A stretch of DNA of 64,000 nucleotides from Sipunculus nudus (taxonomy: Eukaryota; Annelida; Sipuncula; Golfingiida; Sipunculidae), in the NCBI GenBank assembly GCA_026874595.1, contig CM049314.1, forward strand, positions 52,559,812 to 52,623,811, written 5' to 3'. The notes under the pieces are model-generated. The model had not been told where the DNA came from and searched no databases. It saw nothing but the letters and a program-made list of their open reading frames with translations. Below, in pieces: positions 5,248-44,611 of the stretch. The position numbers and the translations under genes were made by a program. Numbering within the stretch: the stretch's first letter is position 1; each line of letters starts with the position of its first letter.

Positions 5248-5429
5248 GATCTGGAGATCATGCCCAGTGGAGACCAGACGTTGGTTGGAGAGCGAGGGGT
5301 CAGTCTGAGCGGTGGTCAGAAAGCCCGGGTCAGCCTGGCCAGAACTCTGTATTGTGAAGCAGATGTGTACCTCCTGGATGACCCCCTCAGTGCTGTAGAC
5401 ACCGCAGTTGGCAGGCATTTATTTGACAA
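5248..5429 (+). CDS. ABCC4: ABCC4-like transporter, exon c (NBD1 signature, Walker B)
   Basis: 60 codons plus 2 nt. It reads [17 protein letters not shown], then the ABC signature LSGGQKAR, Walker B VYLLDDP and D-loop SAVD, ending HLFDK. All NBD1 catalytic landmarks expected here are intact. Walker B ends in DD and lacks the catalytic glutamate, which is normal for the degenerate NBD1 of ABCC proteins. The exon ends GACAA|GTAAGT; the G that completes the AAG lysine comes from the next exon at 6513. Reading on into the intron gives TAA at once. The last bases of this exon seed the tandem array that follows. Confidence 0.95.
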
Positions 5430-6318
5430 GTAAGTGGCCAACCACTAACTTGCTAAATATGATGGCGACCAGCCAGTATATATTTGACAAGTTAGTGGGC
5501 GACCAGCCATTATATATTTGACAAGTTAGTGGGAGACCAGCCAGTATATATTTGACAAGTCAGTGGGAGACCAGCCAGTATATATTTGTCAAGTCAGTGG
5601 GAGACCAGCCAGTATATATTTGTCAAGTCAGTGGGAGACCAGCCAGTATATATTTGTCAAGTCAGTGGGCGACCAGCCAGTATATATTTGTCAAGTCAGG
5701 GGGAGACCAGCCAGTATATATTTGACAAGTCAGTGGGAGACCAGCCAGTATATATTTGACAAGTCAGTGGGAGACCAGCCAGTATATATTTGACAAGTCA
5801 GGGGGAGACCAGCCAGTATATATTTGTCAAGTTAGTAGGCAGCCAGCCAGTATATATTTGACAAGTCAGTGGGAGACCAGCCAGTATATATTTGTCAGGT
5901 CAGTGGGAGACCAGCCAGTATATATTTGACAAGTCAGTGGGAGACCAGCCAGTATATATTTGACAAGTAAGTGGGCGACCAGCCAGTATATATTTGACAA
6001 GTTAGTGGGAGACCAGCCAGTATATATTTGACAGGTTAGTGGGAGACCAGCCAGTATATATTTGACAAGTCAGTGGGAGACCAGCCAGTATATATTTGAC
6101 AAGTCAGTGGGAGACCAGCCAGTATATATTTGACAAGTTAGTGGGAGACCAGCCAGTATATATTTGACAAGTCAGTGGGAGACCAGCCAGTATATATTTG
6201 ACAAGTTAGTGGGAGACCAGCCAGTATTTATTTGACAAGTAAGTGGGCAGCCAGCCAGTATATATTTGTCAAGTCAGTGGGAGACCAGCCAGTATATATT
6301 TGACCAGTAAGTGGGTGG
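5421..6318 (+). repeat. 32-bp minisatellite seeded by exon c end and its splice donor (intron 3)
   Basis: About 27 tandem units of 32 bp fill most of intron 3 (5430-6512). The unit contains TATTTGACAAGTCAGTGG followed by GAGACCAGCCAG. The exon-intron junction itself reads TATTTGACAA|GTAAGTGG, so every unit carries the last ten exon bases plus a copy of the 5' splice site. Most copies have changed the donor to GTCAGT or GTTAGT. Units near 5969 and 6239 keep an intact GTAAGTGG. The copy around 6225-6245 repeats the exon's ATTTATTTGACAAGTAAGTG exactly. As 32 is not a multiple of 3, the apparent reading frame at 5563-5793 is a repeat artefact. Confidence 0.9.
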
Positions 6319-6512
6319 CAAATATATATTATGGCACATTTAACTAAGTCATTTTAAGATTTCACAAAATATTTCACAACATCTTTATTGTATATTGCTT
6401 CATAGTTAAGCTGACTGCCAAGTTTTTGCCAATATTTAAAACAATTTCTGTTATGTTTTATGTGTAGAGACAATTTTTTCTTCATGGGTCAGTGTATGGT
6501 TATATTTGACAG

Positions 6513-6609
6513 GTGTATATGTGGAGTGCTGAAGGACAAGCCTGTGATCTTGGTGACCCATCAGCTCCAGTACCTACAGGCAGCAGACAAGATACTCATA
6601 ATGAAAGAG
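6513..6609 (+). CDS. ABCC4: ABCC4-like transporter, exon d (NBD1 H-loop)
   Basis: 97 nt: one base completing the lysine codon, then 32 codons. It reads [20 protein letters not shown], where the His of VTHQLQY is the H-loop (switch histidine), and ends DKILIMKE. It matches the ABCC4 family, in which THQLQYL is characteristic. Acceptor TTTGACAG at 6505-6512; donor AAAGAG|GTACAA at 6610. The last 18-25 bases are copied through the following 39-bp array. Reading past the donor gives V-Q-stop. Confidence 0.94.
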
Positions 6610-42640: not shown

Positions 42641-42858
42641 ATTCCTTACATCAACCTATGTCAGTGGACACACATCAGTTAAACAGTGTATGTATAAAGA
42701 AGGCTGTACTGTATTTGTTTTCAGAAATGTGTAAGAGGTAGCAACAACTAATATTGGATTATTAACTCTGTTCACTTTAAAGAGGTGTTACTAGTGTTCT
42801 GTAACATTTAGCTGTTTATACAACTGTAACTGAGAGAGTCTTTTTCATTTATTTTCAG

Positions 42859-43009
42859 TGTGCCTTGGTTATCCTGTCAATCATTATTGTTACTGGCGTG
42901 GTCAACCCCTGGGTGTTCATACCTGTCATCCCCCTGGCTGTTGTTTTCTTCTTACTCAGACGATATTACCTGCAGACATCCAGGGACATTAAACGTCTAG
43001 AAGGGACAA
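42859..43009 (+). CDS. ABCC4: ABCC4-like transporter, exon i (central helices of TMD2)
   Basis: 50 codons plus one base. CALVILSIIIVTGVV is one membrane helix, NPWVFIPVIPLAVVFFLL the next; RRYYLQTSRDIKRLEGT is the conserved cytoplasmic run (ABCC4 pattern RRYFLxTSRDVKRLE). Acceptor TTCATTTATTTTCAG at 42844-42858; donor ACAA|GTAAGT at 43010. This is the last exon seen. The next should encode an RSPVFSH-type motif, which I cannot find in the remaining 21 kb. Confidence 0.95.
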
Positions 43010-43019
43010 GTAAGTAAAG

Positions 43020-44611
43020 TTCAGTGTGCTTTCCTACAGGCCACTAACATTTAATGCTACCCCACAGGTCACTAACAGTGAATGCTCCCTCATACGTCAC
43101 AAACAGTGAATGCTCCCTCATAGGTTACTAACAGTGAATGCTCCCTCACAGGTTACTAACAGTGAATGCTGCTTCAAAGGTCACAAACAGTGAATGCTCC
43201 CTCACAGGTCACTAACAGGGAATGCTGCCCCACAGGTTACTAACTATGAATGCTCCCTCACATTCACTTACATTCAATGCTCCCTCACAGGTCACTAACT
43301 GTGAATGCTACCCCACAGGTCACTAACAGTGAATGCTCCCTCACAGGTCACTAACAGTGAATGCTCCCTCACAGGTCACTAACAGTGAATGCTCCCTCAC
43401 AGGTCACTAACAGTGAATGCTCCCTCACAGGCCACCAACAGTGAATGCTCCCTCACAGGTCACTAACAGTGAATGCTCCCTCACAGGCCACCAACAGTGA
43501 ATGCTCCCTCACAGGTCACTAACAGTGAATGCTCCCTCACAGGTCACTAACAGGGAATGCTGCCTCACAGGTTACTAACAATGAATGCTCCCTCACATTC
43601 ACTTACATTCAATGCTCCCTCACAGGTCACTAACAGTGAATGCTCCCTCACAGGTCACTAACAGTGAATGCTCCCTCACAGGCCACCAACAGTGAATGCT
43701 CCCTCACAGGCCACCAACAGTGAATGCTCCCTCACAGGTCACTAACAGTGAATGCTCCCTCACAGGTCACTAACAGTGAATGCTCCCTCACAGGTCACTA
43801 ACAGTGAATGTTCCCTCACAGGCCACCAACAGTGAATGCTCCCTCACAGGTCACTAACGGTGAATGCTCCCTCACAGGTCACTAATAGTGAATGCTCCCT
43901 CACAGGTCACTAACAGTGAATGCTCCCTCACAGGTCACTAACTGTGAATGCTTCCCCACAGGTCACTAACAGTGAATGCTCCCTCACAGGTCACTAACAG
44001 TGAATGCTCCCTCACAGGCCACCAACAGTGAATGCTCCCTCACAGGTCACTAACAGTGAATGCTCCCTCACAGGTCACTAACATTCAATGCTCCCTCACA
44101 GGTCACTTACATTCAATGCTCCCTCACAGGTCTCTTACATTCAATGCTCCCTCACAGGTCACTAACATTTAATGCTACCCCACAGGTCACTAACAGTGAA
44201 TGCTCCCTCCCAGCTCACTAACAGTGGATGCTCCCTCATAGGTCACTAACTGTGAATGCTACCCCACAGGTCACTAACAGTGAATGCTCCCTCACAGGTC
44301 ACTAACAGTGAATGCTCCCTCACAGGTCACTAACAGTGAATGCTCCCTCACAGGTCACTAACAGTGAATGCTCCCTCACAGGCCACCAACAGTGAATGCT
44401 CCCTCACAGGTCACTAACAGTGAATGCTCCCTCACAGGCCACCAACAGTGAATGCTCCCTCACAGGTCACTAAGAGTGAATGTTCCCTCACAGGACTAAC
44501 AGTGAATACTTCCCCACAGGTCACATACATTCAATGCCCCCTCACAGGTCACTAACAGTGAATGCTCCCTCACAGGTCACAAAAAGTGAATGCTCCCTCA
44601 ATGTTATGAAC
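43020..44611 (+). repeat. 28-bp minisatellite with acceptor-like units (intron 9)
   Basis: About 56 units, dominated by CAGGTCACTAACAGTGAATG then CTCCCTCA. The array begins about 10 nt into intron 9, where TTTCCTACAGGCCACTAACA already shows the unit, so here the seed is intron rather than exon sequence. Each unit joins CACTAAC (branch-point-like), a pyrimidine run CTCCCTC and ACAG|GT. Variants include ACATTCAATG and GCCACCAACAG. Confidence 0.88.

Follow-up and report, generated by a model that had tools for sequence, protein, structure and literature searches.

The closest described counterparts of the structures reported here are the mirages of amphioxus, minisatellite-like tandem duplications that run over 5′ and 3′ exon boundaries and repeat the AG/GT splice signals (PMC3087553). 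Mirages are described there as unstable in length, reverse transcription PCR (RT-PCR) is reported to show splicing undisturbed by them, and a model of intron gain is given, with intron gain through tandem duplication of AG|GT segments attributed to Rogers (PMC3087553). Similar repeats were found in amphioxus PGBD5, with Adh and troponin C cited as further cases (PMC3902484), and cephalochordates are the sole mirage hosts named in the excerpts of these two papers. In human duplicated genes, variable internal tandem repeats have been reported, some of them at exon-intron boundaries (PMC2812944). Here we describe an ABCC4/MRP4-like gene with large minisatellites at or beside seven of its splice junctions, located in a 64,000-nucleotide stretch of contig CM049314.1 (positions 52,559,812 to 52,623,811, forward strand), referred to below as the window and numbered from its first letter. 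The amphioxus Adh3 mirage is said to be the founding case.

The structure at this locus belongs to the published kind represented by the amphioxus mirages, and here it is unusually extensive and lies mostly in old introns. The amphioxus examples (Adh3, the globins BflGb6 and BflGb9, similar repeats in PGBD5, and troponin C as cited) likewise have units that span exon-intron boundaries of both types and repeat AG or GT signals, and the 10–72 bp quoted for Adh3 units covers the unit lengths found here. Several genes of one genome are affected there. Here six donor arrays and one acceptor array crowd into a single gene over nine introns in a row, and the arrays have between 7 and 138 full copies. 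For comparison, BflGb6 has 6 and 3 repeat units in its two haplotypes (PMC3087553). The human boundary repeats also have units of about 30 bp, but they average about four units and are tied to segmental duplications and alternative transcripts (PMC2812944). The AG|GT model of intron gain and this locus have in common a duplication across splice-like sites; here, however, there is no sign of a newly made intron, as seven of the nine sit at old positions.

Results

Nine exons of the ABCC4/MRP4-like gene lie on the + strand of the window and join into a single open frame of 559 codons. The best PDB matches of the product are ABCC4/MRP4 (E 2.4e-158), and the exon translations matched the Pfam families ABC_tran and ABC_membrane. 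All donors except that of exon 5, which is GC, begin with GT, and the shortest intron measures 499 bp, the longest at least 20,991 bp. Arrays were defined using Tandem Repeats Finder together with wraparound alignment of each unit, and copy numbers are given as full copies. Nine large minisatellites were found in the window: six at donors (introns 3, 4, 6, 7, 8 and 9), one at an acceptor and two elsewhere. No large arrays were found in introns 1, 2 and 5.

The six donor-side arrays start either inside the 3′ end of the exon or at most 15 nt past it (all coordinates are on the + strand). In introns 3, 4, 7 and 8 the start is exonic and the unit consists of the exon end joined to the donor. The intron 3 array (5417–6315; 34-bp unit, 27 copies) begins 13 nt inside exon 3 (5248–5429, donor GTAAGT at 5430). 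The 39-bp array of intron 4 begins 23 nt inside exon 4 (6513–6609, donor GTACAA at 6610) and is in two parts: the first spans 6587–9412, with 68 copies counted to 9330, the edge of the analysed region, and the uncounted stretch 9331–9412 followed by eye to about 9412; the second (10879–12506) has 41 full copies. The longest of the four (25930–32070; 44 bp, 138 copies) starts 14 nt inside exon 7 (25690–25943, donor GTAGGT at 25944), and the shortest (32510–32928; 60 bp, 7 full copies) starts 24 nt inside exon 8 (32454–32533, donor GTAAGT at 32534). On the other hand, the arrays of introns 6 and 9 start just past the exon. The former (23636–25243; 42 bp, 39 full copies) begins 15 nt after exon 6 (23442–23620, donor GTGAGT) and its unit has no significant exon similarity, while the latter (43022–44600; 28 bp, 56 full copies) begins 12 nt after exon 9 (42859–43009, donor GTAAGT at 43010).

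The spans set against the exon bounds thus bear out a preliminary description that had placed arrays at or beside the 5′ splice site in six of nine introns, with exon-end bases joined to the donor in the units of introns 3, 4, 7 and 8. Its statement that the arrays start about 0–30 nt after the exon holds for introns 6 and 9 and fails for the other four, which start within the exon; of its unit lengths, those of 39, 42, 44, 60 and 28 bp stand, and the intron 3 unit is 34 bp, not 32. A seventh junction array, on the acceptor side of intron 4, was absent from that description. It spans 20152–21466 (61 bp, 22 copies including the exon copy) and ends 19 nt inside exon 5 (21448–21903), and its unit joins the TTTCAG acceptor to the exon start. 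Junction-spanning units are therefore seen at both boundary types, 5′ in introns 3, 4, 7 and 8 and 3′ at the intron 4 acceptor. The remaining two arrays are a 65-bp repeat inside intron 8 (41227–42665; 22 full copies), which ends 193 nt before exon 9 and is not junction-derived by the tests made, and a 44-bp repeat far into intron 9 (55650–64000; 193 full copies), which extends to the window end with no known junction near. Partial copies were excluded from these counts: the second part of the intron 4 array, intron 6, the intron 8 donor array and the last array have one apiece, and the intron 9 donor array and the 65-bp array have two apiece. Mean identity of copies to their consensus was 0.887–0.959 across arrays.

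The placement of the arrays is strongly non-random. Seven of the nine lie no more than 20 nt from the junction that they match, a cut-off picked after the data had been seen, while arrays of equal lengths put randomly in the introns reached at most three of nine in 20,000 trials. If founders were uniformly random, the probability that five or more of nine would span a junction with at least 10 nt on each side is 2.2e-9. These statistics cover one gene and give no genome-wide rate; they agree with the earlier expectation that random placement would rarely give such a pattern. The units were also said to be unrelated in sequence, and among the 36 unit pairs compared there was a single standout, the intron 6 unit against the interior 65-bp unit of intron 8 (score 24, equalled in 0 of 300 shuffles). 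Three further pairs, at 9–14 of 300 shuffles, are about what is expected from 36 tests. A single spreading satellite was rejected as an explanation, the units being mutually unrelated save for that one pair.

The junction origin of the units was assessed by scoring each against 17 junction stretches, with 60-bp segments from the remainder of the window as background. The unit's own junction scored above every background segment for both intron 4 arrays (donor and acceptor) and for introns 7 and 8; in these four cases the junction stretch overlaps the array itself, which is what an array starting in the exon means. For the intron 3 unit, only 6 of 12,583 background segments equalled the score of its own junction. 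When second copies of the nine donors and eight acceptors were sought in their own introns, the donors of introns 3, 4, 7 and 8 and the acceptor of intron 4 came up again, together with a marginal match of the intron 3 acceptor (score equalled by 17 of 20,988 overlapping background segments and 2 of 2,000 shuffles). At 6501–6514 this acceptor, TATATTTGACAG|GT, has 14 exact bases in common with a copy in that intron's array. Because the units of five arrays contain both exon and splice-site sequence, the founding duplication in each should have spanned the junction. The proposal of repeated, seemingly independent tandem duplication across the splice junctions of this gene is supported.

The age of the introns was judged by comparison with CFTR. 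In codon and phase, introns 1, 2, 3, 6, 7, 8 and 9 correspond to the CFTR exon ends c.1392, 1584, 1766, 2657, 2908, 2988 and 3139, respectively. The mapping was made from exon lengths and the alignment ranges to 6msm_A, which we take to be the human CFTR chain with native numbering (query 6–210 = 441–645; query 19–219 = 846–1045). It assumes that the first range is ungapped and that the one-residue gap of the second lies between introns 6 and 7. Intron 9 was placed by extending the alignment two residues, and the comparison covers introns 1–3 and 6–9. Exon ends of CFTR are given by c.1393-1, c.1585-1, c.2657+5 and c.2988+1 (PMC9385490), by c.1584+1, c.1766+1, c.2657+5, c.2988+1 and c.3140-16 (PMC7288340), and by the last exon bases c.2908 and c.2988 (PMC7605713). 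All seven introns fall on known CFTR exon ends, which speaks for the mapping assumptions. Since these seven introns are common to CFTR, the arrays appear to have arisen within old introns, and judged by position five of the six donor-array introns (3, 6, 7, 8 and 9) are old. Junction arrays therefore need not signal the birth of an intron.

The arrays load the gene with additional splice-site sequences. Of 333 extra full copies, 274 have kept the donor GT. With the exon copy excluded, the counts are 25/26 in intron 3, 59/67 and 36/41 in the two parts of intron 4, 105/137 in intron 7, 6/6 in intron 8 and 43/56 in intron 9. By a simple count, the match to U1 equals or exceeds that of the real donor in 102 of the 333, with 0 of 56 in intron 9. 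Compared to other adjacent column pairs, GT is retained more often than average in introns 3 and 8 and less often in intron 9, with introns 4 and 7 at the average; GT retention gives no consistent sign of selection. In the acceptor array, TCAG is intact in 22 of 22 copies, the exon's own included. When the frame is continued past the end of any of the six donor exons that carry arrays, a stop is reached 4–44 nt into the intron, ahead of the first extra donor, so splicing at an extra donor would yield a truncated protein. The unit of the 28-bp array of intron 9 (43022–44600) reads like a recursive splice site: there are 30 occurrences of CTCCCTCACAGGT and 33 of CACTAAC, which resembles a branch site.

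The history of the arrays was followed through the similarity of their copies. In intron 7 similarity to the exon copy drops with distance (rho −0.57), a weak drop is seen in the first part of the intron 4 array (rho −0.30, p 0.015), and no distance trend was found in the remaining six array segments. The most uniform copies lie towards the exon in intron 7 and, weakly so, in intron 4; in intron 6 they are those farthest from the exon, and in the acceptor array those halfway along. The two parts of the intron 4 donor array are separated by a 5′-truncated insertion resembling a long interspersed nuclear element (LINE), which spans 9413–10878 on the + strand, has an A-rich tail and is flanked by a 14-bp target duplication (9399–9412 = 10879–10892). 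Because the insertion splits the array, the array must be the older of the two. The LINE-like insertion has two abutting open frames with one in-frame stop between them, one of which gave a weak zf-RVT match (22.4 bits, under the Pfam cut-off of 27.5). Its protein pattern had four matches in viral contigs, none of which was confirmed.

Discussion

We interpret the arrays as mirage-type minisatellites that grew from junction-spanning founders and whose outermost splice sites are still used, and we put the probability of this reading at roughly 0.75. In such a process, a slip during copying or break repair would duplicate, in tandem, a piece of about 30–60 bp across a splice junction. Further slippage and unequal exchange would then enlarge the array and partially homogenise it, while the spliceosome would keep using the outermost, exon-adjacent site. 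Carriers would survive because that site stays in use and the extra copies are removed with the intron, making the arrays close to neutral. If this is true, about 330 extra donor-bearing and 21 extra acceptor-bearing copies in one gene are all bypassed for the exon-adjacent site. The arrays set dozens of near-identical splice sites beside the real one and thus amount to a natural test of site choice by the spliceosome. That junctions hold more arrays than expected speaks for a local bias. As a first guess, to which we give somewhat less than even odds, the junction bias of the founders reflects a mutational bias in transcribed genes.

Several observations weigh against this account. Two of the nine arrays (41227–42665, and 55650 to the window end) are away from known junctions. 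For the intron 6 unit, 928 of 12,433 background segments reach the best junction score and the in-phase test gave p 0.72; by these two measures a junction origin of this unit has no support and was rejected. For the intron 9 unit, 598 of 12,440 background segments reach the best score, and the best junction is that of another exon. A degenerate in-phase copy of the unit sits exactly on the exon 9 donor (p 0.006, in a test made after the similarity had been seen by eye), and the array is probably a degenerate junction-derived case. An age polarity common to the arrays and running from the exon was rejected, as the gradients disagree among arrays. Hairpin-driven slippage was likewise rejected: seven of the nine units, doubled and folded as DNA, showed no hairpin tendency (z −1.41 to 1.91). 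In addition, copies vary less in the exon-derived part of the unit (5417–5429, 6587–6609, 25930–25943 and 32510–32533) than in the intron-derived part; this holds for six of six array segments, with p 0.014 in one. Strict neutrality does not predict such a pattern, which hints at constraint or at renewal anchored in the exon.

This uniformity bears on the possibility that the repeated splice sites are kept for a function, for example as a backup or for binding the U1 small nuclear ribonucleoprotein (snRNP) against premature polyadenylation in long introns. Introns 4 (14,838 bp) and 9 (at least 20,991 bp) are indeed long, GT is mostly intact and in introns 3 and 8 is kept more often than the average column pair, and TCAG is never lost from the acceptor array. 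However, the exon-derived part reaches significance in a single segment, GT retention is ordinary in introns 4 and 7 and lower than that of other pairs in intron 9, and fewer than a third of the extra donors, none of them in intron 9, match U1 as well as the real one. We therefore consider a function for the repeats unlikely. The preliminary description had offered the locus as a possible natural example of intron birth, in which the arrays would mark introns newly made by tandem duplication of AG|GT segments. AG|GT is present in some units, and this and the 14-base match between the intron 3 acceptor and an intron 3 array copy count in its favour. However, introns 1, 2, 3, 6, 7, 8 and 9 match CFTR in position and phase and so should predate the arrays. 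This contradicts the proposal for introns 3, 6, 7, 8 and 9 and makes it very improbable for the gene.

It is just as hard to credit that the arrays were made or inflated by errors of assembly. Long arrays are difficult to assemble, and the copy numbers may yet be wrong, but the copies diverge from each other (as their mean identity to the consensus indicates), the intron 4 array is broken by an insertion with its own 14-bp target duplication, and the first copies match the exon ends base by base. Nor is there much chance that minisatellites arose anywhere in the introns and only their edges crept to the exons. The two arrays lying off junctions and the lack of exon bases in the intron 6 unit are what such creeping would give, but the units of five arrays carry exon and splice-site sequence.

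Should the host prove to be something other than an amphioxus, the range of mirages is wider than what was found in the open-licence literature, where none outside amphioxus were recognised among the matches listed. No junction-spanning unit is described in the available excerpts on a 27-bp intron minisatellite of an abalone TSSK1-like gene, repeats in intron 1 of an earthworm metallothionein gene, Tectipleura hemocyanin or the scallop genome; the same is true of the excerpt on Mirage of the reniform nematode, which is the name of a transposon. We tentatively raise the possibility, while leaning against it, that junction-aimed duplication also occurs outside cephalochordates, perhaps in a mollusc, which would make mirages a general feature of some animal genomes, shaped by mutational bias.

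Other features of the window

The G+C content of the window is 36.7% by base counts, and scans with Rfam and for tRNA genes gave no matches in it. A tenth exon was sought with three simple motifs in six frames. The one match, in intron 8, is followed by a stop and was judged to be due to chance; exon 10 may lie past the window end or have been overlooked. The array repeat patterns had 0 matches in viral contigs and 0 in prokaryote contigs. Elsewhere in the window, several repeats appear similar to those of bivalves. Intron 5, with its apparent GC donor AAG|GCAAGT (21901–21909), carries no large array. The interior of intron 1 has a 43-bp repeat of 2.3 copies. Repeats of 277–336 bp, in 2.5–2.8 tandem copies each, are present at 17737–18497, 38359–39132 and 52669–53529 and are probably transposon-derived.

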